A stretch of DNA of 64,000 nt, taken from a virus. Position numbers and translations under genes: made by a program. The notes beneath the pieces were generated by a model. The model did no database searches and had not been told where the DNA came from. It saw nothing but the letters and a program-made list of their open reading frames with translations. Shown here in pieces: positions 5,424-48,600 of this stretch. The stretch covers positions 1 to 64,000 of IMG/VR virus record IMGVR_UViG_3300030110_004304; one strand, 5' to 3'. Positions within the stretch are counted from its first letter, which is position 1, and the number at the start of each line of letters is the position of its first letter.

Positions 5424-7886
5424 ATGAGCCAAGATTCGCCAAAGATGCAACCATATATCAATTTTCCCAGACAGAAATTATCTGACAAAAAAAAGGACGA
5501 GAAGTGGTACAAGAAGAACGTAGAATTTGCTGCTAACATATTAGTTTCAGACTACAACTTAAGAGAAAACTTTGTAAACAAAAGAACAAATTATAATCTA
5601 AGATCAAACATAATAAACTCTAGAGACTTTGAAAAGTTTATTAATCCAGATGGTTTAGATTTAGAATCGCTTCCTGCAAGCTTCCAACACATTGGAATAG
5701 AAAATAGCAAAATAAATTTACTAGTAGGAGAATATTCAAAAAGAAGAAAAGAGTATAGAGCATATTTATCAGCCACAGACGAAGAAGGCATTACAAGAAA
5801 AGAAACAGAATTAAAAAGCCAACTAGATGCGGAGCTCATGGAAATCATCCAGACAACATCTATCTCAGAAGAAGAAGTACAAAAAAGATTACAAGAATTT
5901 GAGAAGTATCAAAAATATGACTATCAAGATATCGCTGAAATCACTGCTAACAAAATTCTCAAACGTGAGTACAAAGAGCAAGATTTGGGTTTCTTATTTA
6001 ATAGAACTTTTGAAGATTTATTGGTAGGAGGAGAACAAATTGTTTATTGCGGCGTACTTGGTGGCGAGCCCGTAATGCGAAGAGTGAATCCTATGAATCT
6101 ATATACTATGGGTGGAAACTCTATGTTTATAGAAGATTCTGACATTATAGTTGAATATGGTTATCAATCAGTTGGTCAAGTAATAGATGACTATTGGGAT
6201 GAGCTAAAAGAAAAAGACGTAGAGTTTTTAGAAACAGGAGCAAGTGATTCTAGTGAAACCAGTACTTTAGGATTAAATAGAGATATATCTGTTTTTGATT
6301 ACTATGGTGAAGAACAGGCCTTATCTATTTTTAAACCTAATGAAATGGGATTAAGAACTTTTGCAGGAGCTTTCGATACTTATGGAAATGTAAGAGTTCT
6401 TAAAGCTTCTTGGAGATCTAGAAGAAAGATAGGAAAAAGAAAATACTACGATGAAGATGGTGAAGTGCAGTATGATTTTGTAGCAGAAGATTATGAAATA
6501 AAAAAAGATTTAGGAGAAGAAGTAAAATGGATGTGGGTTAATGAGTGGTTACAAGCAACTCAGATTGCAGATGATATTTTTGTATCAATGGGACCAGTTC
6601 CTTTTGCATCTAAATCTATGGTGAATCGTTCTAAAGGAACGCCTCCTTACATAGGATCAGTAAACAGCACTAATGATTATAGAGTTCAATCTCTTACTGA
6701 TATCATAAAGCCTTTAGCTTATTCATATGATATTGCTTATTATAAAAGAGAATTAGAAATTGCAACTTATAAAGGAAACTTTGCTGCAATTAATGCGTCT
6801 ATGATACCTTCAGGATGGGAACCTAAAGAATGGATTAAATATGCTACAGTAAATAAAATAGCTTGGTTAGATCCTACATCTGAAATCCTTAAAGGACCGT
6901 CTCAAGGAAAATCTGCAGGAGCATTTAATACATTAACTGCTACCAGTGTCCCAGTGGGAGATCCTTCAACTATTCAACTATATACTAATTTATTATTAGA
7001 AATTGAAGCTACTCTAGGAAAACTAGCAGGAGTTACAGGAGCAAGAGAAGGACAAATACAAAACCGTGAAGCTGTAGGAAATGTTAATAGAGAAGTTACT
7101 CAGACATCTCATATTACTGAAAAATGGTTTACTATAGATGCTAACTTCCGTAAGAGAGCAATGACTAAATTCTTAGAGTGTTGTAAGTTTGCTTATAAAA
7201 AGAATCCTAAAAAGGGTCAGTTCTTATTGGATGACATGGGACAAGTAATGGTCCAGAACTTTAATGAGTTTTGTTTATCTGATTATGATATACATATTTC
7301 TAACTCTACTGCTGATACTGAATTATTCAACGAACTGAAAGCATTATCGCAAGCGGCTATCCAAAATGGTCAAGCTACTATTTCAGATTTAGTTGCTATA
7401 TCACAATCAGAATCTGTCCAGGAGATATCCAGAAAACTACAAGATTCTGCTGAAAAGATTAAAGAGCAACAACAAGAGATGCAAGAGAAACAATTGCAAC
7501 AACAGCAGCAAGCTGCTCAAATGGCTCAACAAACTGCTCAAGCTCAAATGGAACATGAAGCTATGGAAGCTGAAAAAGATCGACAAGTAAAGTATGCAGA
7601 CATACAAGCTAAGTTGGATATTGCAAATATGAAAGAGATAGCTTCGGATGTTCGAGATAGTAGAAAAGATAATAGAGATAGAGATAGTGACAATAATGGT
7701 ATTGATGATGTATTAGATCTTAGAAGAACTGATGTAGATGAAAACTTTAAAAATGATACAATTAGTATTAGAGAAGGAGAACTGCAAGAAAAGATAAGAA
7801 AGAATAAAGCAGATGAAGCTATTAAAAGAGCTTCTTTAGGATTAAAAAAACAAGAAGAGAAGCAAAAAAAGAAAAGTGAAAAATAA
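5424..7886 (+). CDS. Portal protein
   Basis: The dodecameric ring at the capsid vertex through which DNA enters and leaves. The call rests on position between terminase and scaffold/capsid, the 820-residue length, and the crAss-type sequence (for example TDIIKPLAYSYDIAYYKREL near 430 and LLLEIEATLGKLAGVTGARE near 525). Residues about 680-715 form a Gln-rich coiled coil (EQQQEMQEKQLQQQQQ). Residues 754-765 (DSDNNGIDDVLD) match an EF-hand/TSP3-like calcium loop with ligands at positions 1, 3, 5, 9 and 12. The last 50 residues are strongly basic. The C-terminal barrel/coiled coil may project into the head. Confidence 0.88.
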   Translation: MSQDSPKMQPYINFPRQKLSDKKKDEKWYKKNVEFAANILVSDYNLRENFVNKRTNYNLRSNIINSRDFEKFINPDGLDLESLPASFQHIGIENSKINLLVGEYSKRRKEYRAYLSATDEEGITRKETELKSQLDAELMEIIQTTSISEEEVQKRLQEFEKYQKYDYQDIAEITANKILKREYKEQDLGFLFNRTFEDLLVGGEQIVYCGVLGGEPVMRRVNPMNLYTMGGNSMFIEDSDIIVEYGYQSVGQVIDDYWDELKEKDVEFLETGASDSSETSTLGLNRDISVFDYYGEEQALSIFKPNEMGLRTFAGAFDTYGNVRVLKASWRSRRKIGKRKYYDEDGEVQYDFVAEDYEIKKDLGEEVKWMWVNEWLQATQIADDIFVSMGPVPFASKSMVNRSKGTPPYIGSVNSTNDYRVQSLTDIIKPLAYSYDIAYYKRELEIATYKGNFAAINASMIPSGWEPKEWIKYATVNKIAWLDPTSEILKGPSQGKSAGAFNTLTATSVPVGDPSTIQLYTNLLLEIEATLGKLAGVTGAREGQIQNREAVGNVNREVTQTSHITEKWFTIDANFRKRAMTKFLECCKFAYKKNPKKGQFLLDDMGQVMVQNFNEFCLSDYDIHISNSTADTELFNELKALSQAAIQNGQATISDLVAISQSESVQEISRKLQDSAEKIKEQQQEMQEKQLQQQQQAAQMAQQTAQAQMEHEAMEAEKDRQVKYADIQAKLDIANMKEIASDVRDSRKDNRDRDSDNNGIDDVLDLRRTDVDENFKNDTISIREGELQEKIRKNKADEAIKRASLGLKKQEEKQKKKSEK

Positions 7887-9214: not shown

Positions 9215-10705
9215 ATGGCACAATTACTTCCATTACAGAGATATGAAGCTGTTGATTATAACGGTCTAGTTACCGATAATCACTTTCATGCTTTGTACCA
9301 ACAAAAGCCTGAGTTAATTAGTTCTGTAATCAGAGAGATCTACAAAACTAATTTACAAGGTAAATTAAGAGAGTTCGTTAACAGGTTCCCAGTAAAAGAA
9401 GTGGAACAAGAGAACGGATTTTATAACTGGATGTTGCAAGGGCAACACGATAAAAATCTTCCTTTAGTAGATGCTGAGACTATCGCGGGTAACGCTATCT
9501 CTGCTAACATCGGAGCTAATGGAGAAAGATTTAATCTTATTTTCGGAGATTCTATTTTCGATGAAGGAGATGTTCTTAAAGGAGAAACTGATGAGTATCA
9601 CTTATTAGTAAAGAAGGTATCAGATGCTGGTTCTTTAACTAAGGTTGAAGTAGAACTAGTTGCTGACAATCCTACTAAATCTGTTCCACCAGAAGAATTA
9701 GCTGAAGGAACAAGATGGTCTAAATTTTATAGCCTATCACCTTCTACATTATCTTACCAAGGTTCTAGTCCTTATTTCACTTCTCCTTGGAGAATGGAAA
9801 ACAGACCTTCTACTCTTAGAATGGAGTACAAAGTTCCTGGTAACGTAATTAACAAAGGTAAGAACGAACCATTAGAGTTCGGATTCCAATACAAAGGACA
9901 ATCAGAGTCTATCTGGATTAACTATCAAGATATGGTTGCTCACCACCAATGTGAAGAGATGTTCTCAAGAATGTTGATGTATGGTAAGAAAAACTGGACT
10001 AATGATCACAAGTACTTAAACAAAGACGACAAAACTAAATACTCTATCGAATCGGGTGCTGGTTTCTTTGAGCAAGTTGCTCCGTCTAACGTACACTACT
10101 ACAACTCATATGACATTGATTGGCATTTAGAAATGCTTCTTGATATGGGAGTTGGTAAAATTGAAAGAGGTAGAAGAACTATCCACTTGTTAACAGGTGA
10201 GTTTGGTGCTATCGAAATCTCTAAACAAATTCAAGCTAAGACGTCTGCTCTAGTACAAATTGTTTCTGATAAATTTATTACTGGAAACTCTAAAGCAGGA
10301 AACATTGGTGGTAAGAATACTAAGTCTTCTATGGAGCCTCAGTACAATATCTACGAATGGTACAATGGAGTTGTTATCAAAGTTGAGATCCTTGATTTCT
10401 TCGATGATGATGTATACTTCCCAAAAGTACATCCTGATGGAAAAGGTATCGTTGAATCTCACAGAATTTTAGCTCTTGACTACGGTGAAGAAGCAGGAAT
10501 CTACAGAGTTAAACCTAAAGGTGTTCCAGATTATAACTGGGCGTACATTCCAGGTATGAGAGATCCTTTCTCTCCTGCAGGAAAAGGTTCTCCGAAACTA
10601 GTAGCATCTCCTATTGATGGATATGAAGTTCATATGCAAAAATGGGGTGGCATGATGATTGAAGATCCTACAAAAGTTGTAGACTTAAGATTATCAGTAG
10701 ACTAA
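9215..10705 (+). CDS. Major capsid protein (HK97-fold expected)
   Basis: A 496-residue capsid subunit. The N-terminus (LLPLQRYEAVDYNGLVTDN) and the segments ENGFYNWMLQGQHDKNLPL, TSPWRMENRPSTLRMEYKVP and MQKWGGMMIEDPTKVVDLRL are characteristic of crAss-like capsid proteins. Known members adopt the HK97 fold. The codons are noticeably less extreme in AT content than in neighbouring genes, as expected for heavy expression. The leader is A-rich (AACAAATAAAACAAAAAACA) and lacks a Shine-Dalgarno sequence. A strong hairpin follows directly, so most transcripts may end after this gene. Confidence 0.93.
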   Translation: MAQLLPLQRYEAVDYNGLVTDNHFHALYQQKPELISSVIREIYKTNLQGKLREFVNRFPVKEVEQENGFYNWMLQGQHDKNLPLVDAETIAGNAISANIGANGERFNLIFGDSIFDEGDVLKGETDEYHLLVKKVSDAGSLTKVEVELVADNPTKSVPPEELAEGTRWSKFYSLSPSTLSYQGSSPYFTSPWRMENRPSTLRMEYKVPGNVINKGKNEPLEFGFQYKGQSESIWINYQDMVAHHQCEEMFSRMLMYGKKNWTNDHKYLNKDDKTKYSIESGAGFFEQVAPSNVHYYNSYDIDWHLEMLLDMGVGKIERGRRTIHLLTGEFGAIEISKQIQAKTSALVQIVSDKFITGNSKAGNIGGKNTKSSMEPQYNIYEWYNGVVIKVEILDFFDDDVYFPKVHPDGKGIVESHRILALDYGEEAGIYRVKPKGVPDYNWAYIPGMRDPFSPAGKGSPKLVASPIDGYEVHMQKWGGMMIEDPTKVVDLRLSVD

Positions 10706-11724: not shown

Positions 11725-12483
11725 ATGACTGCAAACGAAATGGCCAATGAGCTAGAGTTAAGACTAGACCGAAGCGATAGTTTCGGATCCCCTGGGTACG
11801 AGGACTTTGATTTAACCTCCGTACTTACAGAAGGACAATGGCTATATATAAAAAAGTTTGCAAGTGAACTTAACAACAGGAAAAACCAAGGGTTTGAAGA
11901 AACCGAAGTAAGAAACCAGGGCTTGTCTGCTTTAATAAAAGCAGGCTTAGCTCTTTCAGCTTCTGCAAGCCAAGTAGGAGTTTTAGATAACGGTGTATTC
12001 TATGATCTTCCAGACGACTTTATGTATACTATATATGAAGAAGCAACGATTAATAAAAATGATTGTACACAAGAAGATGAAGTTCCCATTAAAGCTTGGA
12101 TAGATGTAGTTTCTCACGATGAAATTTGGCAATACATATATAATAAGTATAAGAAACCTTATTATAAATCATATGGGTGGGCCAGAGTTTGGAGACTCGT
12201 TTATGAAAGAGAAGTTTCTGGAGTTGATCCAGCATTACCTGCTACACCAAAGAGACACCAGTTAGTAACTGATGGAACTTTTAATGTAACAGATTATAGA
12301 ATTAACTATTTAAAAAACCCACCACAAATTGTTGTGGATAGATCGGGCGGAGGTGCAGAAAAAAATTGTATCTTAGACGAATCTACTCATACAGTGATAG
12401 TAGACATAGCTAAAGACCTAATGCTACAAAGAGTAAGGGAACAAAAAATACAAAACATAGAGCCTGTAAAGGACCTAGAATAA
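11725..12483 (+). CDS. Connector/ring-like structural protein, 252 aa
   Basis: A long N-terminal helix region (ANELELRLDRSDSFG, GQWLYIKKFASELNNRKNQG) is followed by a strand with YDLPDDFMYTIYEEA. This recalls the 'LP-x-D-(F/Y)' segment of podovirus head-tail adaptors (T7 gp11, P22 gp4 type). The C-terminal half is beta-rich (GTFNVTDYRINYLKNPPQIV) and ends in a helix. A similar LPADLHRI segment occurs in the protein at 26414-27550. I infer a ring at the portal or a capsid-connector role. Placement two genes after the capsid gene fits. Confidence 0.5.
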   Translation: MTANEMANELELRLDRSDSFGSPGYEDFDLTSVLTEGQWLYIKKFASELNNRKNQGFEETEVRNQGLSALIKAGLALSASASQVGVLDNGVFYDLPDDFMYTIYEEATINKNDCTQEDEVPIKAWIDVVSHDEIWQYIYNKYKKPYYKSYGWARVWRLVYEREVSGVDPALPATPKRHQLVTDGTFNVTDYRINYLKNPPQIVVDRSGGGAEKNCILDESTHTVIVDIAKDLMLQRVREQKIQNIEPVKDLE

Positions 12484-22208: not shown

Positions 22209-22829
22209 ATGGGGAAATATGTATGGTTATTAGATCCAGGACACGGTGGCAAGATTGATGGCGTTTACCAAACTTCTGGAAAAAGAAGTCCTATATGGCC
22301 CGATGGTACTCAGTACTTCGAAGGAGTAGGAAATAGAGAGATTGTACAAAAACTAATGGGCAAATGCACAGAAGCTAACATAGACTTTTTTGATGTTACA
22401 GAAGGGAGTAACTATGATATAAGTCTTGCAGAAAGAGTACAAAGAGCCAATAATTACGAAAGATCATTTGGAAGATGTATATACTTATCTATGCACTCTG
22501 ACGCATTTACTAAAGAAAGTGCTCACGGGTATAGTGTATATACTAGTGAGGGAGAAACTAGGAGCGATAAAATTGCTACCGTTTTCATAAATAATATGAA
22601 AAAAATGTTTTCTGACCACAGGTTAAGAAAAGATAGTAGAGACGGAGACGAAGACAAAGAAGCACAGTTTTATGTGCTCAGAAAAACTTCTTGTCCAGCT
22701 ATACTAATTGAAAACTTTTTCATGACTAATGAAAGAGAGTCTAAATTATTAATGGATGAAAAATTCCAAAATAAGATAGTAGATTGTCATTTTGAAAGCA
22801 TATTACGTATAGAAAAAAACGGTATATAA
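22209..22829 (+). CDS. N-acetylmuramoyl-L-alanine amidase (endolysin, Amidase_3 type)
   Basis: A zinc amidase cleaving the lactyl-amide bond of peptidoglycan at lysis. All expected residues are visible: H12 (LLDPGHGG), E44 (GNREIV), H96 (YLSMHSDAF) and the catalytic E168 (AILIENFF). At 206 residues it is a single-domain enzyme with no cell-wall-binding module, as usual for phages of Gram-negative hosts. It has no signal peptide, so release needs a holin. It starts the lysis cassette after a UUCG hairpin. Its stop shares one base with the next start. Confidence 0.9.
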   Translation: MGKYVWLLDPGHGGKIDGVYQTSGKRSPIWPDGTQYFEGVGNREIVQKLMGKCTEANIDFFDVTEGSNYDISLAERVQRANNYERSFGRCIYLSMHSDAFTKESAHGYSVYTSEGETRSDKIATVFINNMKKMFSDHRLRKDSRDGDEDKEAQFYVLRKTSCPAILIENFFMTNERESKLLMDEKFQNKIVDCHFESILRIEKNGI

Positions 22830-22992: not shown

Positions 22993-23193
22993 ATGAACAA
23001 CAAAACAAAAAACATTATTACAAATTTAATAGGATTAATCCTATTAGGTATTAACATTTATATGTATTATACCTCAGAAGAAAGTTTATCTAGTTTTATA
23101 TCTATTTTAGTTATAAGTCTAGCATTATTTTTATTTAAAGGAACAGAAACAAAACAATGGCTACAAAAAGCATTAGGAAAATTGTCGAAATAA
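22993..23193 (+). CDS. Small two-helix membrane protein, possible holin or antiholin
   Basis: A 66-residue protein with two hydrophobic helices (IITNLIGLILLGINIYMYY and FISILVISLALFLF) and a basic C-terminus. Size, topology and place between endolysin and spanin are typical of a class II holin or an antiholin. The larger holin-family protein at 14336-14851 is the stronger holin candidate by sequence. The ATG at 22993 is preferred over upstream near-starts because it follows the previous stop. It overlaps the spanin gene by 37 bases, an overlap style common in lysis cassettes. Confidence 0.55.
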   Translation: MNNKTKNIITNLIGLILLGINIYMYYTSEESLSSFISILVISLALFLFKGTETKQWLQKALGKLSK

Positions 23194-23603
23194 TTTTACT
23201 AGTATTAATAGTTTTTAGCTGCACACCTCAAAAAAGATTACATAGATTAATAAATAAACACCCGGGGTTAATGCAACTAGATACTATAGTAATAAGAGAT
23301 ACTATAGTAATAGAAGACTATACCCACGATACTACAACAATATTACAATTTCATGACAGCACTACAGTTGTTAATAATGAAAAAGTAATACTAAAATATT
23401 TTTATGACACACTTACCAGAGAAATACACCACGAATATACATGCCTCGGTGATACGATTATACAGGAGAAAATTGTTCCGTATGAGAAAATCGTTATCCA
23501 GGAGCTTACGTGGTGGCAGAAATACGGAAATATAATTATTACTATAACTATTATCTTATTACTGCTGACATTGTTTAAAAAGTTTTCCAAATTTTTTATA
23601 TAA
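23157..23603 (+). CDS. Probable unimolecular spanin (u-spanin)
   Basis: The N-terminus has a basic start, a hydrophobic core and a lipobox-like site ending in C22 (LIVFSC), typical of relaxed Bacteroidota lipoprotein signals. The C-terminus has a single transmembrane helix at about 124-142 (IIITITIILLLLTLF) followed by a short Lys-rich tail. An outer-membrane lipid anchor plus an inner-membrane helix on one polypeptide is the defining topology of u-spanins such as T1 gp11, which fuse the two membranes after the wall is degraded. The periplasmic part is beta-rich, with repeated DTIVI-type strands (IVIRDTIVIEDYTHDTT). The position after amidase and holin-like genes fits well. Confidence 0.72.
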   Translation: MATKSIRKIVEIILLVLIVFSCTPQKRLHRLINKHPGLMQLDTIVIRDTIVIEDYTHDTTTILQFHDSTTVVNNEKVILKYFYDTLTREIHHEYTCLGDTIIQEKIVPYEKIVIQELTWWQKYGNIIITITIILLLLTLFKKFSKFFI

Positions 23604-23604
23604 T

Positions 23605-24903
23605 ATGGGACGCAGAAAAAGTCAAAATAGTATTAGGGGTAGAGTCTTAAAACATGAAAAAAATATTAAACAATTTTTTCATAGTGGGATTACTTCACCT
23701 ATGCAAATAGCTAAAAAACTAAATGAGCTTGAGCTCTTACCAAACGTTACTTTAGAAGGAGCTAGGAAAGAAATATCTAAATTTTTAAGAAGAGAAAATC
23801 TACTTCCTGGAGTTGTTACTTCTACTGATAAAGTAAAGTGGGAAGAAGACTATGAAAATGGCGTAGCTTCTTTCGACTACTCAGGATTAAAAAAAATACA
23901 AACTCAAGAAGACTTAATTAGGTTTGCAAAAATAGATACTTCTAAATGGAAAGCGGTAAAACAAACTGCTAATAAGTGGGGAGAGAATTATCAAATTAAA
24001 GTAGTATTTGAAAGTGTAGATAAGCATGCTCAAGAAAAAGAACTTTACAATAGAGCTTTTGAAGCTCTAAAAGAACATCTAGCAGATAGAAAAATACTTA
24101 AGAAAAAGAATAAAAAGACCGTTACTAATATAGGAGTTATCCCATTAGCAGATTTTCATATAGGGGCCTACATTAGGAATCTTATTAGAACGCCTAATTA
24201 TGATTTAGATATATTAACTAATATGCTAGAAGAAGTAGCTATTACTATAAACGAATTAGAATATTCTGAAGTTCATATTATATTTTTAGGAGATATTATC
24301 GAATCTTTTACAGGAGTAAATCACCCTAACACTTGGAAAGAATTAATGCGGGGTGGTTACGGATCTAATATTGTAATCACTGCTTATGAAATATTAGAAA
24401 ACTTTCTCAATAAAATAGAAAATCTACATAGCCTTTATTTAGTTTCTGGAAATCACGATAGAGTTACTGCTAGCAACAAAGAAGATACAAAAGGAGAAGT
24501 TGTAGAGTTAATAAGTCATTTCTTAAAAAAACAATTATCAGTAAACGTTATATACCATCCGATTTTAATATCACAGATAATAGATAACATATGTTATATA
24601 TTTACACACGGACACCACAACTTTACTAAAAAATCATTAGAGCATATTATTTGGAAATATGGGAAACAAGGTTACTTTAATCTCGTATTACAAGGACATT
24701 GGCATACTAGAAGAAAAAAAGAACCAGTAGTCAATATGCAAACAATATATTCAGATTCGGGAGATTATAGAGGAATTACGTGCCCAAGTCTGTTTACAGG
24801 AAATTTTTACTCGGAAACATCAGGTTTTACCTCTACAGCTGGATTTTTAATAGTTCAGAACAAACATAATAAGCCTGCAATTTTCGATATACCATTAGAT
24901 TAA
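23605..24903 (+). CDS. Metallophosphoesterase (calcineurin-like) with N-terminal helical domain
   Basis: The full set of calcineurin-like motifs is present: D183 and H185 (ADFHIG), D230 (FLGDIIES), N283-H284-D285 (SGNHD), H335 and H337 (THGHH) and H365-x-H367 (QGHWH). A two-metal phosphodiesterase or phosphatase is expected. Residues about 15-70 (HSGITSPMQIAKKLNELELL onwards) look like a helix-turn-helix, which could bind DNA or the virion. Related proteins occur at this locus in other crAss-like genomes. The substrate is unknown: nucleic-acid ends or a cyclic nucleotide signal are possible. It starts one base after the spanin stop. Confidence 0.85.
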   Translation: MGRRKSQNSIRGRVLKHEKNIKQFFHSGITSPMQIAKKLNELELLPNVTLEGARKEISKFLRRENLLPGVVTSTDKVKWEEDYENGVASFDYSGLKKIQTQEDLIRFAKIDTSKWKAVKQTANKWGENYQIKVVFESVDKHAQEKELYNRAFEALKEHLADRKILKKKNKKTVTNIGVIPLADFHIGAYIRNLIRTPNYDLDILTNMLEEVAITINELEYSEVHIIFLGDIIESFTGVNHPNTWKELMRGGYGSNIVITAYEILENFLNKIENLHSLYLVSGNHDRVTASNKEDTKGEVVELISHFLKKQLSVNVIYHPILISQIIDNICYIFTHGHHNFTKKSLEHIIWKYGKQGYFNLVLQGHWHTRRKKEPVVNMQTIYSDSGDYRGITCPSLFTGNFYSETSGFTSTAGFLIVQNKHNKPAIFDIPLD

Positions 24904-24916: not shown

Positions 24917-25627
24917 ATGCTGCCACTTATAGACTTACATAGCCAACTAGACGAAGCGTTAAACGTTAACTCAATAGATTCTGAATTTAGCGATCTTTTT
25001 TACACAGATCTTATAAACGAACAGAGAGCATTGTTTCTTCGTAACGAGTACAACAAATCTAGAACAATAGATCCAAATATCCAACAAGAGATACCTTGTT
25101 TAGAAATGGAACTTGTTGATCCTCAGACATGTTGTGACTTAGATATATCTTTAGATTGTAAAGTATTAAGAAGCAAAAAAACTATACCTAACACGGTAGA
25201 ATTATTTTTTAGAAAAGCCATTACAGCAATTGGCCCAGTAGATATTACCAAGAAGAGATATACTGTTATAGACTACAATAGAGTGCCATATGCAGGAAAT
25301 GGAAGAACAACTTCCAAAGCAGTATATGCTTTTCTATATGCTGATTACGTATATATAATTAGTAAAAACCCTACAATAAACTTAGTAGACAAAATAACTG
25401 TTAGAGGAGTTTTTGAAGATCCTAGTAAATTAGGAGAATTTGTAGATTGCTCAAACAAACCTTGTTGGAGCCCGTATGATATATATCCTCTTAATCAGTG
25501 GACATGGGCGTATATAAAACCACAAATACTCCAACAACTGATGCAAAAACAAGCTATACCGCAGGATAATGAAAATGATTCTAAAGATAATAAAACAGGG
25601 GGAATGACTAGTGGAGCAGCAAAGTAA
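24917..25627 (+). CDS. Crass-like tail connector/ring protein candidate, 236 aa
   Basis: Helical N-terminus (DLFYTDLINEQRALFLRNEY) followed by a mixed alpha/beta body with recognisable crAss-like stretches (RYTVIDYNRVPYAGNGRTTS, VYAFLYADYVYIISKN) and a C-terminal helix plus disordered acidic tail. Several Cys are present (CLEME, CCDLD). Together with the next genes it lies where crAss-like phages encode the ring proteins joining portal and muzzle, so I infer a ring or tail-tube role. No enzyme motif is seen. The last 17 bases overlap the next gene. Confidence 0.5.
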   Translation: MLPLIDLHSQLDEALNVNSIDSEFSDLFYTDLINEQRALFLRNEYNKSRTIDPNIQQEIPCLEMELVDPQTCCDLDISLDCKVLRSKKTIPNTVELFFRKAITAIGPVDITKKRYTVIDYNRVPYAGNGRTTSKAVYAFLYADYVYIISKNPTINLVDKITVRGVFEDPSKLGEFVDCSNKPCWSPYDIYPLNQWTWAYIKPQILQQLMQKQAIPQDNENDSKDNKTGGMTSGAAK

Positions 25628-26413: not shown

Positions 26414-27550
26414 ATGCAATCAGGAAATACAGTATCTTATAAAAATGTAGTAGATAAAGTATTCAGAGATTTTGGATTCAATTATGATATAAATGATGAA
26501 GAAGTTTTAGAATGGCTAGCTGAATTTATGGCCCATACTATGGCTGGGGTAGTAATGGAAGCTAAAATCAACTACACAAATGTAGTAGATGGAAGAGCGG
26601 ATCTTCCTGCAGACTTACATAGAATAAAACAAGTAGCCCAACTATCCGGCGTTAGTAGCTTAGAAGAGGCAGAGTGTGGAAAAGGTACTATAATTCCTAT
26701 GAGGTGGTCTACAGATAACTTTCACAAAAGATATCATTTAGATAACAGAGACTACACTAGTGAGTCTTTAAATACTTATAATCTAGGACAAGGTTACATC
26801 TTCCCTTCTTTTGATTGTGGAATGCTAGCTATTTCATACGAAGCAATTCCGACAGATGATTGTGGATATCCTACAATACCAGCAGAACAACAATGGTTAG
26901 AAGCAGGTACGTGGTACATAGCTCATAAAATTGCTAGAAAACTTTGGATACGTAATGAGATTACTGCTGATAAATTCCAATTAATAGAAAGAGATAGAGA
27001 TTGGTACTTTACTCAAGCAGTAAACTTTGCTAGAATGACTAACGGAGTAGATGAGGCAGAATCTCTGAAAAATCAACAGGTAATTACTATTCCTAAGATT
27101 CAGGATCATGCATCATTCTTTGCTAATATGCAAATACCAGAACAGCGTAAATTTAGATTAAAAGCTAACGGTTCTATAGTAAACCAACCTAATGAAGTAG
27201 GTATACAAAGCAGCAGTAACTTAGCTTCTAACAATCCTAATGTTTTACCGGTATTAAGCCAATACGCCGTGTCAGCAATAGCAGCAACTACAGCTACTTT
27301 TAACAGTGAGCTCCAATCTTACGGATCAACTGCTATTTCTAATCATGGACATTGTTGGTCTACTACTTCTTTTCCAAGTATAGGAACTCCAGGAGTTATT
27401 GTAGATTCTAAAGGAACAGTTGCAGCCCCATTGGCGTATTCAACTAATGCTACCGGCCTAACACCTGCTACTACATATTACGTACGAGCTTTTGCAACTA
27501 CAGCAACAGGTACAGTATACAGTAATCAAATTACCTTTAATACTTTATAA
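26414..27550 (+). CDS. Head-tail adaptor/ring protein with C-terminal FN3-like domain
   Basis: The N-terminal 90 residues (YKNVVDKVFRDFGFNYDIND, ADLPADLHRIKQVAQLSG) resemble podovirus adaptor proteins of the P22 gp4/T7 gp11 kind, with a helix bundle followed by the 'LP-x-D' segment. The middle is beta plus helices (YIAHKIARKLWIRNEITADK). From about residue 277 to the end is a separate domain whose pattern (TFNSELQSYGSTAISNHGHC, then TTYYVRAFATTATGTVYSN) fits the FN3-like modules common in Bacteroidota surface proteins. So the ring carries an exposed accessory domain, perhaps for glycan contact. It directly precedes the muzzle gene. Confidence 0.6.
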   Translation: MQSGNTVSYKNVVDKVFRDFGFNYDINDEEVLEWLAEFMAHTMAGVVMEAKINYTNVVDGRADLPADLHRIKQVAQLSGVSSLEEAECGKGTIIPMRWSTDNFHKRYHLDNRDYTSESLNTYNLGQGYIFPSFDCGMLAISYEAIPTDDCGYPTIPAEQQWLEAGTWYIAHKIARKLWIRNEITADKFQLIERDRDWYFTQAVNFARMTNGVDEAESLKNQQVITIPKIQDHASFFANMQIPEQRKFRLKANGSIVNQPNEVGIQSSSNLASNNPNVLPVLSQYAVSAIAATTATFNSELQSYGSTAISNHGHCWSTTSFPSIGTPGVIVDSKGTVAAPLAYSTNATGLTPATTYYVRAFATTATGTVYSNQITFNTL

Positions 27551-27559
27551 CTATAGTAT

Positions 27560-30500
27560 ATGGCAATGAAAAAACATAATAACACTTATGGTAAAGGCCT
27601 AAATGTTGATACCGCTTTTGATAGCATGCCTGCCAATATGTATATCGATGCTATGGATGTTAGAATAACAACTGCAGACGGAGAAAGCACAGGGGCTATA
27701 ACTAATCTTCAAGGTAACGAAGAAGCTTTTAAAATAAACCAAGCCGGTGCAACAGGATTAAAAGAAATAATAGGAGTAGGATTTATTAGAAATATTATAA
27801 TTCTTTTCTGTGCAGATGATACTGGGACTAATGGTTGGATGTATTATGTAACTTATGACGAACAAACTAGAAAAATAACTAGTGGAGCTCAGGCTCCTCT
27901 TTTGTATGATGGTGATGGAAACCCTAACTTATTAGGTTTCAGCAAAGACTGGCCAATAGAAGCCCAAGGAAGATATGAATCTGATTGCGTACAAAGAATA
28001 TATTGGACAGATTATAACAACTCACTAAGAAGTTTATTAATTGAAGATTTTACAAGTATTCCAGCTGGAGGATTATCATTAGACATTAGTGTAATTGATA
28101 TATTTCCTGAAGTAACATACACACAGCCAATATTAACTAATGTTGCTTTTGGGGGAACACTTCTTGCAGGAGAGTACCAATTTGCATATAGACTAATTAC
28201 AGAAGACGGTAAACAAACTTTAATATCTCCTCCTGGAAACCTAATACATCTAACAAGCGACTCAGAAGCTACTAGTACTAGTAGACGATATATGGGAGAT
28301 CCCAAAGGTACTAATACTAATAAAAGTTTAGAAATTACAATAGACACAAGTGATTATGTAAATAAATTTGAAAGAATAGAATTAATATCAGTATTCTTTG
28401 AAGAATATGGGGGCACTCCTTTAGTACAATCTGTCGAAACTCAAGGAATAGGAGTATTAACTGAAATAAATTTTATTTATACAGGCCAAGAAAACACAAT
28501 AGTAGATTTACCTTTAGCAGAGTTTGCTATTAAAGTATATCCTTTTAGCACCTGCAAAACAATGGTCCCTAAAGATAACTCTTTAGTTGTTGCTAATATA
28601 AAACAAACTAAGTTTGATATAAACGAATTATTAGAACCAGGAGAGACTTTAGATTTAATGACAAAAAGATATAATAGTAGTAGTGAGTTACCTTTTACAG
28701 ACGGACTAGTTAATCCGCTGGCACTTGTGCCAGGTACTCTTTACGAAGAAAAAGATGAAGTATTTAATCTTCCTTATAATCTAGATCAACATTGGGAAGG
28801 ACCTTGGCACGAAGAACAACAATTTAAATATCAAGCTGATGGTTCTACTATGGGGGGACAATCTTTAGACGATGGTGTGAATCCTTCTAATCTATCCTAT
28901 AAGTTTGCCCTAAGTCTTGATATAATAGATGACAGTAGTCAACCAGGTTTAGCAGAATTAACCAATACCTTTCCAAATGAGATTATTAATCTAAATGATG
29001 GTTATACGTACACTAATAAAAGTTTTCGCTCTAAAGCATCTCCCTACAAAAGTGGATTAACCAGAGGCTATAAAAGAGGAGAAGTTTATCGTTTTGGTGT
29101 AGTATTTTATAATAAAAAAGGAGAGTCTTCTTATGTAGAATATATTGGTGATATTAAGATGCCTGATATTTCAGAAGAAGCAGGCTATACAACAGTGACC
29201 GTTCCTGGTCCTGGAGCTAAAGACTTTTTTCCTATATCTTCAGCTGCATCTAGTGGTGCTACAGTTCCAAACGATTATACTTATGGTCATGATTTAGGAT
29301 TAAAAATAGATTTAGATTTTACATCTTGTCCTAGTATATTAGACAAAATAACTTCTTTCCAAATAGTAAGATGTAAAAGAACAGATGTTGATAAAAGAAG
29401 ACCCGCTTCTGGTATAATTAAATCATATCATTTTCCAGATATAGGTTCAAACCCACATTACGATCCTGATCCAGAAGATAGAGAAGGTTATGAATGGGAC
29501 AGTCCCGATGGAAATATTTTACATTTATATTGGACAAAACCCACTGGCTTTATGCCATCTGAGAGTGGAAAACCTTTTGCTGGTAGTTGGTATTCTTTTA
29601 ATAATAATTGGAACACATATCGAAGATTTTCAGCTGATGAAAACTATAGTCCAATATATGGAGATTTCTTAGCTTTCTACAGTCCTGAAGTATCTTATAA
29701 TTTTAACAGACAAAATCTTGAAGGAGCTGGAAAAGCACTTTTAATTACAGGTTCATATGCTGACTACGGCCTTATTTGGCAAGGTGCATCATCTACTACT
29801 AGATATTATACTAGTACTCTACATGATGAAATTTATGGAACTAATCAAAATAATCAAGAATTAGGATGTGACATATGGGAACAATATTTTAAAGTACGAA
29901 CAACTAATAGAATAGATAGAGAAACCGTAGCTGAACAACCAGATGGTACTCTAGATACTGTATATGATGGAGGAGCAGGTTATCCAATATCATATAGAGG
30001 AATAGAATATGTAAGACAATTTAACAATGCTGGCGTATTCACAGATTTTGAAAAGGCTCAAGAAGATGTTGAACGAGGAGATAGAATGAGTAAAATTATA
30101 AAAACGTATGGTCCTCTAGTTTCGAGCCCTCCTACTCCTACTTCTTTTTATATAAGACCTGTTTATGTTTTTGTAGGAAATGAAGGAGCTGTTGGAACAG
30201 ATGATCCTGATGATTGTCCTTGTGCAGTATCTCAACCAGGTCGTAGTCTTGGTGGTAATAATTGTGGATATGGAGGAATAGGAAGAGGATCAGTCTGCTT
30301 AACAGTGAATACTACTAATATATTTACCAATCCTTATACAAGTAATCCCGTTGTTGTTGGATCAACTGGAGTTGCTTTTCCTACAACTCCTACTAATGCT
30401 GTTGCTGGATCAGTAACCGATCCATGTTTTGGAGGTCCTAGCACATGGACAGGTAGTTTTGGTTATGTTTGGCCAGAGTTTCCTGATCAAAATTTTATCC

Positions 30501-32428
30501 CCAGTCCTTCAGGCAATGATTTTTTAAACAACATTATGAATACTCCAGTAGTAGACGTTATGTTGTTTAAGCAAGAAATTTACGGAGGATATACTAACTC
30601 TGCTTTACAGAATAATATATTTGTTCCCTGTTCGCCTGTAGTTACAACAGCACCTGTAATATCTAATTTAGAAGTTTACGGAGGAGATACTTTTATAGGA
30701 ATGTATAGTATGCAAACAAGAAGTATGATTCTAGATGAGTATCCTTTTCCTAATGGATTTACAGCAGGTAATGATGAGTATAGATATGAAGCCAATGGAG
30801 GTTGCACGGAAGCTATTCCAGTAGAAACCCAAGTAAATTTAGACTTAGCTATGGGAGGTACTTATAAAACTAATTCACAAGCTTATTGGGTCTATTCTGG
30901 AGTTGCAGAAATAGAAGGATTCCTTAGACAAGAAGTAGGTAATTTATCTGATTCAGGGGGTAGTGGTACTTGGGCTAAAGTAAACGATGCGTATAACAAT
31001 GCTTATAATCAAGTATACTCAGTAGAGCCTGCAGATAATACTTTAGGATTTTTCATCAAGCCTGGAAGTGCAACTGGTTGTGGAATAAATGATATTAGAG
31101 CATTCTTATCGGATGTTAAGATAAACGAAGAAGAAGTAGATTCTTGGTCTATATTTAGAGCCAATAATTATTATGATATAGAAGCTCAGTTTGGGCCCAT
31201 AAATAAAATAGAAAATTGGAGAGACGAAGTATTCTTTTTCCAAGATACTGGCGTAGGAAAGTATAGTATAAACCCAAGAGCAGTAACAACAACAGAAGAT
31301 GGTATACCTACGCAATTAGGTTCTGGACAAGGATTCCAACATCACCAATATCTAAGTACTGAAAACGGATCTATACATCAGTGGGCAGTAAAAGCTACAG
31401 ATACTGGAATATACTACTTCGATGCTATGAATAAAAAGATATTCAGAATAGGTGGCCAAGGAAACGAGCCTCTTTCAACTATGAAAGGTATGCACGGTTT
31501 CTTAGCTAATTTTAATGGAACAGTATTAAGAAGAAAAGAAACTGATCAAGCTATAAGTTTAGGAGGAGATAATCCAATACAGAATAGAGGCGTTGTATTT
31601 TCTAGAGACCAACAAAACGATGAAGTACTAATGACTTTCTTAGGAATGTATAAAGTAGTAGGATTAACTAATAACATTAACTATGAAGCAGGTACTATTG
31701 TACAAATAACTCCTGGTGGCGGAGGAACAATACAATATTGGATAGTGTATGAAAGCTACACAAGTGATCCCGCTGCTTCCTCTCCAGCACTACAAGCAGA
31801 ACTATCCACTAAAGCTAGTTGGGTAGATACAGATACTAGAGAAGGTAGGTTATTATATAGTATCTTACAAAAAGGAGATGGAGGAAAAAGTACTTTAGTA
31901 TTTGATGAGGTTGCCCAAGCATTCTCTTCATTCTATTCTTCTACTCCAGGACTTTATATAGAAAATAGCAATATTTTAATGAGTGCGAAAAAATCTAAAG
32001 AAGGAGATGAGTTTATAGCCTACACTCATAATAAAGGAAAGTACGGAGAGTTCTATGGAAGTATTGAAGAAAGTAGTATAAGCTTAGTTATAAATCCAGA
32101 TGCTGATATAAACAAAATACTTAGATTTATAGAATTTGGTTCTCAGGTAAAAGAAATAGGAGGAGACATAGATAGGAGTACTACTATCACTGCTTTTAGA
32201 GTAGAAAACGAGTACCAGGACACTACTAAAACTGCTTACAGCCCAAGTAATATAAAAAGAAGATTTGATAAATGGAGAGTTAAATTGCCTAGAGATCAGA
32301 AAAGTTCTTCAAAAAGAGGACGTTTAAGAAGTACTCATTTTGTTTTAACTTTGTATTTTAATAACTTAGATAACAAGGAGTTAGTACTTAATAGGATAAC
32401 TTCTCACTATGATGTACAGGTATACTAA
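27560..32428 (+). CDS. Tail muzzle / stabilisation protein, 1622 aa
   Basis: The N-terminus (NTYGKGLNVDTAFDSMPANM, YIDAMDVRITTADGESTGAI, NLQGNE) matches the pattern of podovirus tail stabilisation proteins (P22 gp10 type, 'GL-N-x-D...Y-x-D-A-x-x-x-R'). Crass-like muzzle proteins of 1000-1600 residues are known to cap the tail and gate the genome. The body is beta-rich and propeller-like. A Cys/Gly-rich insertion lies near 880-915 (DPDDCPCAVS, GGNNCGYGG). The end (NIKRRFDKWRVKLPRD, NRITSHYDVQVY) is conserved in character. It probably forms the distal tail. The gene ends seven bases before the first cargo gene. Confidence 0.72.
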   Translation: MAMKKHNNTYGKGLNVDTAFDSMPANMYIDAMDVRITTADGESTGAITNLQGNEEAFKINQAGATGLKEIIGVGFIRNIIILFCADDTGTNGWMYYVTYDEQTRKITSGAQAPLLYDGDGNPNLLGFSKDWPIEAQGRYESDCVQRIYWTDYNNSLRSLLIEDFTSIPAGGLSLDISVIDIFPEVTYTQPILTNVAFGGTLLAGEYQFAYRLITEDGKQTLISPPGNLIHLTSDSEATSTSRRYMGDPKGTNTNKSLEITIDTSDYVNKFERIELISVFFEEYGGTPLVQSVETQGIGVLTEINFIYTGQENTIVDLPLAEFAIKVYPFSTCKTMVPKDNSLVVANIKQTKFDINELLEPGETLDLMTKRYNSSSELPFTDGLVNPLALVPGTLYEEKDEVFNLPYNLDQHWEGPWHEEQQFKYQADGSTMGGQSLDDGVNPSNLSYKFALSLDIIDDSSQPGLAELTNTFPNEIINLNDGYTYTNKSFRSKASPYKSGLTRGYKRGEVYRFGVVFYNKKGESSYVEYIGDIKMPDISEEAGYTTVTVPGPGAKDFFPISSAASSGATVPNDYTYGHDLGLKIDLDFTSCPSILDKITSFQIVRCKRTDVDKRRPASGIIKSYHFPDIGSNPHYDPDPEDREGYEWDSPDGNILHLYWTKPTGFMPSESGKPFAGSWYSFNNNWNTYRRFSADENYSPIYGDFLAFYSPEVSYNFNRQNLEGAGKALLITGSYADYGLIWQGASSTTRYYTSTLHDEIYGTNQNNQELGCDIWEQYFKVRTTNRIDRETVAEQPDGTLDTVYDGGAGYPISYRGIEYVRQFNNAGVFTDFEKAQEDVERGDRMSKIIKTYGPLVSSPPTPTSFYIRPVYVFVGNEGAVGTDDPDDCPCAVSQPGRSLGGNNCGYGGIGRGSVCLTVNTTNIFTNPYTSNPVVVGSTGVAFPTTPTNAVAGSVTDPCFGGPSTWTGSFGYVWPEFPDQNFIPSPSGNDFLNNIMNTPVVDVMLFKQEIYGGYTNSALQNNIFVPCSPVVTTAPVISNLEVYGGDTFIGMYSMQTRSMILDEYPFPNGFTAGNDEYRYEANGGCTEAIPVETQVNLDLAMGGTYKTNSQAYWVYSGVAEIEGFLRQEVGNLSDSGGSGTWAKVNDAYNNAYNQVYSVEPADNTLGFFIKPGSATGCGINDIRAFLSDVKINEEEVDSWSIFRANNYYDIEAQFGPINKIENWRDEVFFFQDTGVGKYSINPRAVTTTEDGIPTQLGSGQGFQHHQYLSTENGSIHQWAVKATDTGIYYFDAMNKKIFRIGGQGNEPLSTMKGMHGFLANFNGTVLRRKETDQAISLGGDNPIQNRGVVFSRDQQNDEVLMTFLGMYKVVGLTNNINYEAGTIVQITPGGGGTIQYWIVYESYTSDPAASSPALQAELSTKASWVDTDTREGRLLYSILQKGDGGKSTLVFDEVAQAFSSFYSSTPGLYIENSNILMSAKKSKEGDEFIAYTHNKGKYGEFYGSIEESSISLVINPDADINKILRFIEFGSQVKEIGGDIDRSTTITAFRVENEYQDTTKTAYSPSNIKRRFDKWRVKLPRDQKSSSKRGRLRSTHFVLTLYFNNLDNKELVLNRITSHYDVQVY

Positions 32429-45687: not shown

Positions 45688-48600
45688 ATGTCGGAAGAAT
45701 TAGAAAATGAAATACCAGAAAACGACTTAGATGCAGTAAGTGGTTTACCAAAAGATTTTGTAGAGAGAAGCGTTATAGGAGGAAAAATGTCTCAGTATCT
45801 TACTCAAAGCGAGGCAGCTATGTCTGGACATATTCAAGGTAAACAAGGAGCTTCAGGATTTAAGGGAAATATGGGACCATTTGTAAATCAAGATTATGAT
45901 TTAAATGAGATGGTAGAAGGGGGAGAATATGAAGATGAAAAACGTTTTGATCCTTTAGGACATCTTGAAACTAAAAATAATCCATATGGTCTAGATGCTA
46001 ATATTCCGAACGGTGTAGACTTTTATGCAAAATTATCAGAGTTAAACCTAAAACAAGGAACCCTGGACTACGAAGATGAGTTAGAAGAAAATCAAGGATT
46101 CTTTGAGGAACTGACTAATACGGGAATAAAGTTTTGGGGTAAAGTCGCTAACTATACTGCATTAGGTATAGCAGGTTTTGTTTGGGGAGCAGGAAAAGCT
46201 ATCGTTAATTGGGATATCGATTCTCTTATGGACAACGAAGTTTTTAGAGGAATGGACGAAGTTGATGAATGGCTTAATAAAAGATTTGTCGTACATGGAG
46301 GAGCAGACTATAGATTAGCCCAGGAAAGAGGTGCGGGTATTGGAGAAAGGTTTTTATTAGATCCTACAAAAGTACTGGCAGATGATATATCAAACGCAGG
46401 ATCTTTCGTAGCGAGTGCTATCGTAACTGAAGTATTATTAGGAGCAGCTACTGTAGCTACTGTTGGTGGAGCTGGACCAGCTTTAGCTGCCAACACTGCT
46501 AGACTAGGAGTACAAGGAGCTAGACTATTTAGTACAGGTGTTAGAGTATTAAGAGGTATAGATAAAATGGCTGACATGGGGGCTGCTTTAAGAAACGCTA
46601 CACGGTTTAAAAATATGGCTGGTACTGGAAGAGCTATATTAACTGGAGCCGGTTTTGAGTCAGCTATGATAGGTAGAGAGACTAAAGATAGAGTTATAGA
46701 AAACCTAGCAGCTGATTATGAAGAATACTATGGAAGACCGCCTTCAGAAGCTACATTAGCAGAATATGAAGAACTTGGTAACAGTGCAATGCGTCAGGCT
46801 TATGCATTGAACCTACCACTAGTAGCAGGTAGTAATATGTTACAGTTCCCTAGACTATTTTTAAAAGGATATAGTGGAGGAAGAAAATTAGTAAACGGAC
46901 TTAGATTTAAAGGAGGAAAGTGGGCTGCTAAATATGATGAATTTAGTAAAATAAGAAAAGCAGGACTTTGGACAAGAAAAAGTTTAGGAAGAGGTGTTAC
47001 TGAAGCCTGGGAAGAATATGCTCAAGGAGCTATGGAAGAAGGACTAGTAGATTACTTTAGTGCTAACTATTCTGCAGACGCCGCAAAAAATGGTGTAGGT
47101 TGGTTAGATGCAATGTCTACAGCTGGTTCAAAATATTTAGGAACTACAGAAGGACAAGATAGTGCTACTATTGGATTTTTAATGGGTATGGTAGGAATGC
47201 CAATGCCTTTTAAAATGAATCAAAAAACAGGAAAAATAGAAAAAGGTTTTGGCTGGTTCGGGGGAGTTGCTGAAGAATTAAGTAATCAAAAGCGTAGAAT
47301 TAAATCTTTAAGAAATGCTGCAGACATGCTAAATCAAACAGATGCAGGACAAGCACTAGCAGCTAACTATCAGAACTTTATAAGAAACATGGCCATAGAG
47401 CAAGATAAAGATAATGCTCTAATGAATGAGGACCCTTTTAGTTTTAAAAACAGTGAGCACGATCAGCTTCATAGTTATGCTATGACTAGACATAACATGG
47501 GACTTTCTGATACTATGTGGCAAGAACTTGATGGATTAGAAAAAATGTCCACAGAAGATTTTAATAAGGCTTATCAATTAAAAGGAGTTGATGAGTGGAC
47601 CGATGCTACTAAAAAAGAAGTTCTAGATAAAACTAGAGCTAAACTAAAAAGAGTGGTAAAAGTAGCAGAAGATGTTGATACTCACTTTAATAACAAAGTA
47701 ATAAGCAATGTTCCTGTTGGTGAAGAGGCAAGTTATGCTGCAGTAAAAGAACAGCTAACATATTTAGCATCTACTATTGACAACGTTGATGCTAGAGAAA
47801 AAGAATTAGAGGATAAGATAAGCAACCTCACAGGGGGCAATGTAAACTCTAATAGCATAAAAGCAAGTAAAACAGTATCTGGAATAAATGAGAAAACAGG
47901 TCAAGCAGAGTTTGGAACATTAAGAGATCCTAAAGGTAGGTTTAAAAGCCAAGACGCCGCTTTCAAGAATCAGATGGAAGAATGGAAAGAAAATGATCCA
48001 GGAGGCTATGCTTTAAACAAAGACGAAGTAACGGATTTATATAACGACACTAAGAAACTAAGCAACAGAAGAAGAGAAGCTGGGGGGCTTTATGAGTTTC
48101 TATTTACTAAAGAAGGAAGTGAATCATTTAAAAAAGTACACGAAAAACTTCAAAAAGATTTTGCTAAAAAAGTAGCAGATGCTGTAAAAGAAAAAGTTAG
48201 AAATAAGGCCAAAGGAACAAAAAACCAAACGCAATCTAATAGAAATAAAAGAGACGCCGAGTCTACTAATACAGATGATATCTGGGGAGAAGAAGCAGAT
48301 CAGCAAGCAGCGGCGGCTAATGATAATGTAATTAGTAAGAAAAAAGGACCTTTAGCAGACTTAGCTAGTGACGAAGAAATGGAACCTGGTATTCCTCAAG
48401 AAGTAAAAGGAATTGATATATTAGAAGATATAGCAGAAAATAGATCTAATACATTCTTAAATAAAATACTAGATGAAGCAGAAAAACGAGGGTACAATAC
48501 ATCCGGTATAAACTCAATACAAGATATTCTGAACATAACAGCTTTCCAAGATCCTGAACTATTTGCTGAGCTACAAAGAATAGCTTTAGAAATGGCCCAA

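Follow-up and report, generated by a model that had tools for sequence, protein, structure and literature searches.

A metallophosphoesterase gene next to the tail Ring 2 gene of a crAss-like phage, at a spot that holds other nuclease-type folds in related phages

The DNA analyzed here (hereafter the window) is a 64 kb stretch out of a 91,345-base virus record, which may itself be a fragment. Pfam profiles recognized the crassvirus capsid, Ring 3/4, Ring 2, Ring 1, and muzzle proteins, identifying the source as a crAss-like phage. The gene under study encodes a metallophosphoesterase (MPP), originally predicted to lie between lysis and tail genes, and Pfam confirmed this setting, with an Amidase_3 endolysin on one side and a CrAss_Ring_2 protein on the other. 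The features considered are as follows.

9215 to 10705, + strand: Crassvirus major capsid protein, which identifies the phage (PF23898, E 2.2e-85)
11725 to 12483, + strand: tail Ring 3/4 protein, encoded upstream of the MPP (PF25710, E 2.4e-19)
22209 to 22829, + strand: Amidase_3 endolysin (Pfam, E 4e-26)
23157 to 23603, + strand: spanin-like gene with a lipobox (Cys22) and a C-terminal hydrophobic stretch (sequence features)
23605 to 24903, + strand: MPP with an N-terminal helical module, 432 aa (open reading frame, profiles, alignment, AF2, structure search)
23605 to 23808, + strand: HTH-like N-terminal part of the MPP, residues 1-68 (AF2 helices and charge; weak Pfam matches in relatives)
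23809 to 24024, + strand: middle beta-beta-alpha-beta-beta domain of the MPP, residues 69-140 (alignment of 33 N-termini, AF2)
24130 to 24900, + strand: catalytic domain of the MPP, residues 176-432 (alignment, AF2, structure search)
24917 to 25627, + strand: tail Ring 2 protein, the first gene 3' of the MPP (CrAss_Ring_2, PF25702, E 8.8e-29)
26414 to 27550, + strand: tail Ring 1 protein (PF24228, E 2.1e-44)
27560 to 32428, + strand: muzzle protein, the anchor for the neighbor survey (PF25731, E 1.5e-148)

Upstream of the MPP, the endolysin gene is followed by a 77-aa open reading frame (ORF) and then by the gene for the 148-aa spanin-like protein, whose lipobox and C-terminal hydrophobic stretch form the pattern of what is presumably a unimolecular spanin; its best Pfam match (E 0.028) fell under the cut-off, and no PHROG matched at E 0.1. 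The MPP gene starts 1 base after the stop of the spanin-like gene, and Ring 2 starts 13 bases after the MPP ORF. Elsewhere in the window, a 4210-aa protein (45688-58320) carries a circularly permuted YpsA (SLOG family) domain at its C-terminal end (residues 3993-4132, E 5.1e-21).

The MPP ORF is intact, with 432 aa and no internal stop, and was the single match to its family in the window's own virus record. A motif pattern drawn up from the alignment (DxHxG, GDxxE, GNHDR, H[GN][HD], HxH) was present in all 80 homologues (the best 80 of 150 relatives), and residues D183, H185, D230, N283, H284, H335, H365, and H367 were invariant in a 40-sequence alignment comprising the window protein and 39 proteins from the 92% non-redundant set of the 80 loci, with L008 left out. 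The complete calcineurin-like motif set originally reported was thus confirmed, and a chance motif was ruled out, as no other ORF among the 3062 ORFs of at least 50 aa in the 80 loci fitted the pattern. The Pfam families Metallophos (E 0.0057) and Metallophos_2 (E 0.002) matched the window MPP below their cut-offs. PHROG families bearing the annotations "exonuclease" (phrog_284; residues 39-431, E 2.2e-22, nearly full length at 25-394 of the 398 profile positions) and "DNA repair exonuclease" (phrog_704; E 5e-14) also matched. The gene is under purifying selection among relatives, with dN/dS of ~0.05-0.12 across five pairs drawn from L001, L003, L004, L005, and L009, the window excluded (0.013/0.25, 0.019/0.16, 0.022/0.29, 0.002/0.035, and 0.093/0.83). 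No transmembrane-type hydrophobic segment was found in the window MPP, the highest 19-residue mean being 1.37 and that of the first 40 residues at most 0.02.

The AF2 model of the protein (pLDDT 80.7) placed four N-terminal helices within residues 10-63 (10-16, 18-26, 32-41, and 50-63), followed by a beta-beta-alpha-beta-beta domain (76-137), a linker helix, and the MPP part (176-432). The N-terminal part is the most variable of the three when the 40-sequence alignment and the model are taken together, and its first 68 residues are basic (15 K/R vs 6 D/E). These predicted helices and this charge fit the helical, HTH-like N-terminus of the original prediction; HTH_7 and HTH_32 gave weak Pfam matches, each in 1 of 40 relatives, at E 0.0099 or worse. 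The alignment of 33 N-termini with the middle domain includes that of L100, in which the module is joined to another catalytic half.

Structural comparison (VIA-align 2) confirmed the MPP fold, with Z up to 15.9 over 234 residues. The matches were led by the DNA enzymes PolD DP1 (5ihe; Z 15.9, rmsd 4.0, 234 aligned, 13% identity) and SbcD (7dog; Z 15.6, rmsd 3.3, 192 aligned, 17% identity); MJ0936 (1s3l; Z 15.4, rmsd 2.5, 163 aligned) was tied with them, LpxH (5b49; Z 14.1, rmsd 3.2, 176 aligned) came close behind, and several viral structural matches carried the name DNA polymerase II small subunit. As these scores lie near each other, the fold fixes the superfamily rather than the substrate, and the protein does not resolve into a close relative of a housekeeping repair nuclease, the outcome that would have spoken against the original prediction. 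Sequence searches of the PDB reached E 0.11 and 0.076 at best. The structural search of the N-terminal half proposed earlier was run and named no fold: the best PDB match had Z 6.6, a level that possibly reflects just a common arrangement, the PDB matches barely probed residues 1-70, and the best BFVD match (E 6.2e-4, TM 0.28) was a phage protein named DNA polymerase II small subunit. With matches this weak, the middle domain could not be assigned to a known fold.

Among known enzymes, SbcD/Mre11 and PolD DP1 share the catalytic fold of the protein (Z 15.9-14.7) at 12-17% identity, but the window MPP has no residues left for the SbcD capping domain, its last residue (432) aligning to SbcD 260 (7dog) or 274 (7yzp). 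The SbcC partner (PF13476) gave 0 matches in the possibly incomplete 91,345-base record, with 14 of 14 controls positive. A classical SbcD was accordingly rejected, the protein being without a cap and no SbcC having been found. In PolD DP1, an OB domain precedes the PDE domain; the window MPP aligns over residues 139-432 at most. Gp177 of Bacillus phage Troll (phrog_284/phrog_704 type) has the same motif set at ~21% identity but a different N-terminus, and its gene has recombinase and sigma-factor genes in its neighborhood. The MPPs of the flavobacterial phages phi46:1 (gp22), Harreka_1 (gp46), and Tenacibaculum JQ (ORF46) are 35-46% identical to the window MPP over the catalytic domain, whereas their N-termini match another family, phrog_22398; the JQ gene lies three genes after an amidase gene and is termed a putative auxiliary metabolic gene in the available text of its description (PMC11267871). 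In vitro, DNA is degraded by Gp48, an MPP of mycobacteriophage A10ZJ24, but not by its mutants, according to the accessible part of the report (PMC12287305); by that description Gp48 resembles the window MPP, but its gene is an early one. Weak matches to the N-terminal half of the L026 MPP were also seen in two genes annotated as DNA repair exonucleases: 5743-7101 of Tunturiibacter phage Tunturi_3 (L171; E 0.1), placed between endolysin and virion genes, and 5710-6921 of Leuconostoc phage phiMH1 (L170; E 0.004), separated by three genes from the terminase small subunit.

The neighborhoods of MPP relatives were surveyed in 80 loci, the best 80 of 150 relatives, obtained in two scans of viral contigs with flanks of up to 8 kb. 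Within these 80, a crAss core structural gene was present in the flank of 54 loci; capsid, portal, or Ring 3/4 genes lay upstream of the MPP in 48 and downstream in 0, and Ring 2, Ring 1, or muzzle genes lay downstream in 7 and upstream in 0. Both sides were visible at once only in L036 and in the window itself, so that the order Ring 3/4, MPP, Ring 2 was mostly pieced together from one-sided views. The original prediction had regarded an enzyme of this kind as odd in a late structural block. Because the place recurs in crAss-like phages, including Cellulophaga phage phi14:2, whose metallophosphatase also lies 5' of Ring 2, the location among virion genes is a habit of the lineage, not an oddity, and the 54 loci with core genes rule out an isolated insertion.

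A spanin-like homologue immediately preceded the MPP in 8 of the same 80 loci (best 80 of 150), and five of these eight (L001-L004 and L009) had no crAss core gene in a flank of up to 8 kb, which suggests that the pair can move together. In L002, an endolysin-like gene comes before the pair and a ParB-like protein is encoded after it. For L016-L081, there is a one-base overlap between the MPP stop and the following gene on the same strand, seen in 52 of 84 loci. The gene 3' of the MPP in L026, the single one scanned, matched phrog_1084 (1.2e-22) and the tail-fibre assembly family phrog_3304 (1e-5).

The spot 5' of Ring 2 was then viewed from the tail side, in a survey that started from the muzzle N-terminus (best 80 of 275 relatives) and used a greedy ORF call. 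The slot gene was defined as the closest one 5' of Ring 2 that runs on the same strand and codes for 70 aa or more. A Ring 2 match was present in 65 of the 80 muzzle loci and a readable upstream gene in 52; the other 28 were unreadable, 15 for want of a Ring 2 match and 13 for want of a complete upstream gene. The 52 slot genes comprised 20 MPPs, which fall into four kinds by sequence, together with 8 DnaQ-like exonucleases and 24 lysis (cell-wall) enzymes, the lysis, L141, and DnaQ-like classes being named from a Pfam scan of one representative per sequence cluster, the L092 kind from a family HMM, and the catalytic halves of L100 and L101 from motifs read by eye. The window family filled the slot in 3 of 52 loci (L006, L090, and L094), and chimeras with the window-type N-terminal module on another MPP-like half in 2 (L100 and L101). 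The L092 kind accounted for 3 (L092, where it follows a homologue of the spanin-like gene, L158, and L089, the last a cut frame), and the L141 kind for 12, its representative matching Metallophos exactly at the cut-off (E 3.6e-4). The DnaQ-like genes (L102, L103, which is split, L104, L109, L120, L128, L155, and L156) are PolB-exonuclease-related, judging by the representative L156 (RNase_H_2, 2.7e-11; DNA_pol_B_exo2, 1.2e-7). In those eight loci, stand-alone DnaQ-like 3'-5' exonucleases are encoded among tail-ring genes.

Distance to Ring 2 separated these classes. The gap was 13 bases in the window family, 22 in the chimeras, 32 in the L092 kind (294 in the cut L089), and 12-24 in the DnaQ-like genes, as against 342-423 in the L141 kind and 36-369 in the lysis genes. 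Every one of the 15 slot genes that lie no more than 32 bases from Ring 2 was an MPP or DnaQ-like; this limit was set after the gaps were seen. The L141 kind therefore represents a looser neighborhood; its 12 members, like 23 of the 24 lysis genes, are over 150 bases away from Ring 2, so that a smaller gene may intervene. Two loci with a lysis gene in the slot (L133 and L161) also carried, farther upstream, an MPP of the L141 kind. In 22 of the 52 slot loci, the flank contained none of the three classes searched for. In the records of these 22, one had a PF00149 match and five had a PDDEXK_1 match (four over the cut-off); the 21 records with no PF00149 match include four of 84-92 kb. The enzyme thus seems dispensable in many relatives, with the proviso that PF00149 is a weak detector that could miss a divergent MPP, the window's own MPP reaching just E 2.5e-4.

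The N-terminal module of the chimeric L100 gene (1583-2896) matched that of the window family (hhalign probability 99.3, E 2.2e-20), whereas the catalytic halves were not detectably alike (hhalign probability 0.2), and the first motif of L100, read by eye, is CxH in place of DxH. A common HTH part in the MPP and the N-terminus of the L156 DnaQ-like protein was set aside, the match being too weak (hhalign probability 63.6; phmmer E 0.017 in a set of seven sequences). A tree of Ring 2 and muzzle proteins was built from 41 rows at 95% non-redundancy, drawn from the 52 loci, the window, three named phages, and L015, L084, and L085, which were added for their MPP. The window fell in a five-row clade (support 100/100) in which three rows carry its MPP family and two the L092 kind; within this clade, the MPP kind was exchanged once. 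L100 was placed among DnaQ-like rows (clade support 100/99), a second exchange. The nine slot labels needed 8 changes, the least possible, compared with a shuffled mean of 21.5, indicating that the classes mostly follow lineages and that exchanges are few. Several deep branches are long, and we therefore relied on shallow placements only.

Among named crAss-like phages, the annotated metallophosphatase of phi14:2 (g075), downstream of the lysis genes, is a shorter MPP (307 aa) of another kind than that of the window, alike in the catalytic part only (hhalign probability 89.8, E 1.8e-6, one pair). In FpV4, the gene 5' of Ring 2 (gp24) was rejected as an MPP, being instead PD-(D/E)XK-like at E 6.8e-4, below the curated cut-off. 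PF00149 matches were absent in crAss001, cr126_1, DAC15, and FpV4. The available part of a survey of crAss-like phages (PMC7886860) lists an "MPP metallophosphatase", a recurring MPP comparable to ours by name, with neither position nor subfamily, and describes a PDDEXK nuclease (PDDEXK_a) encoded, like the window MPP, among virion genes but of an unrelated fold. PDDEXK_1 matches in crAss001, cr126_1, DAC15, and phi14:2 all lay outside the interval between Ring 3/4 and Ring 2, leaving that published nuclease unconfirmed at this position, save weakly in FpV4.

Of the three functions offered in the original prediction, that of a nucleic-acid enzyme emerged as the best supported, given the PHROG exonuclease match, the other nuclease folds in the slot, and the published phage MPP nuclease, A10ZJ24 Gp48. 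The 28 non-lysis slot genes (of 52) are all phosphoesterases or nucleases by class evidence, and random accessory genes would not look like this. The folds of these genes have in common the cutting of phosphodiesters, mostly in nucleic acids. The slot classes, taken with the available accounts of Gp48 (PMC12287305) and of the crAss-like PDDEXK nuclease (PMC7886860), make a late DNA nuclease the best reading, toward which the lead of PolD DP1 and SbcD among the structural matches also counted. Counting against it were the nearly equal scores of MJ0936 and LpxH, the patchy occurrence of the enzyme, the small number of exchanges on the tree, the PDDEXK_1 matches lying away from the ring interval in four named phages, the absence of a detected SbcC, and the early action of Gp48 as described in the accessible text.

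We therefore consider it reasonably probable that the protein is a late-expressed DNA nuclease, steered by its N-terminal module and engaged in DNA clean-up; its nuclease chemistry, metal, DNA substrate, late timing, and precise step are what we infer. The MPP would be a two-metal nuclease of the phage SbcD/exonuclease-like MPP family, probably made from the lysis and tail gene run and not built into the virion. The HTH-like part and the beta-beta-alpha-beta-beta domain would probably bring it to DNA or to a DNA-bound partner. Its likely job would be to cut branched, unpackaged, or host DNA during head filling, before lysis; candidate late steps are the removal of branched or unpackaged DNA at packaging, the destruction of host DNA, and a lowering of lysate viscosity.

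Other readings were weighed against this one. The MPP might break down cyclic (oligo)nucleotide alarm signals as a phosphodiesterase, or counter host defence in some other way, and be encoded by an accessory gene in the late run; the calcineurin-like T5 A1 orthologues are predicted to act in this way in the accessible part of a jumbo-phage survey (PMC7824862). The structural tie with the MJ0936 phosphodiesterase (Z 15.4) and the patchy presence of the gene also suit this reading, but the late-gene location, the HTH-like module, and the DnaQ-like and PD-(D/E)XK-like proteins in the same slot argue against it. DnaQ-like and PD-(D/E)XK-like folds act mostly on DNA or RNA strands, and we regard a role in signal destruction as unlikely. 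A link to lysis, as a protein or envelope-lipid phosphatase aiding release, drew on the spanin-like gene that immediately precedes the MPP in 8 of 80 loci (best 80 of 150; five lacking a crAss core gene in the flank), the endolysin-like gene ahead of the pair in L002, and the LpxH fold match (Z 14.1). The window MPP nevertheless has no transmembrane-type hydrophobic segment, and DnaQ-like exonucleases fill the same spot in relatives, making such a role quite improbable in our view.

A virion component had also been proposed, and as such the MPP would be head or tail cargo that is injected. The MPP is encoded among ring and muzzle genes, and cargo proteins are stored in crassvirus virions according to the available part of a structural study (PMC10172136). 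The phi14:2 record, however, bears MS/MS notes on Ring 2, Ring 1, and muzzle but none on the MPP, IHF, or endolysin, and in the phi46:1 record many structural genes carry such notes while MPP gp22 does not; these are annotation notes only, and the proteins concerned are a different kind of MPP in phi14:2 and a distant homologue in phi46:1. Since the phi14:2 structural genes g084, g090, and g092 likewise lack a note, and since crAss001, whose virion was analyzed (PMC10172136, in the part available), has no PF00149 match, neither is a strict test. The missing notes thus speak weakly against a place in the virion, which we judge very unlikely.

Returning to the late nuclease, a broader proposal can be made only tentatively, and we hold it to be rather doubtful: the neck/tail-ring cluster of crAss-like phages may contain a nuclease post, filled by unrelated nucleases (several MPP kinds, DnaQ-like, and perhaps PD-(D/E)XK) and partly steered by a transferable HTH and beta-beta-alpha-beta-beta module, because head filling and tail-barrel joining would need a dedicated, so far undescribed DNA-trimming step. 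Taken singly, the gene codes for an ordinary phage MPP, and more can be learned from its surroundings than from the gene. In related members of an abundant phage order, one spot beside the tail-ring genes is occupied by nuclease-type folds that are unrelated to each other. This pattern makes the role of the enzyme testable in the cultured phages phi14:2 and FpV4, and it suggests what genes currently labeled hypothetical or auxiliary metabolic might do.
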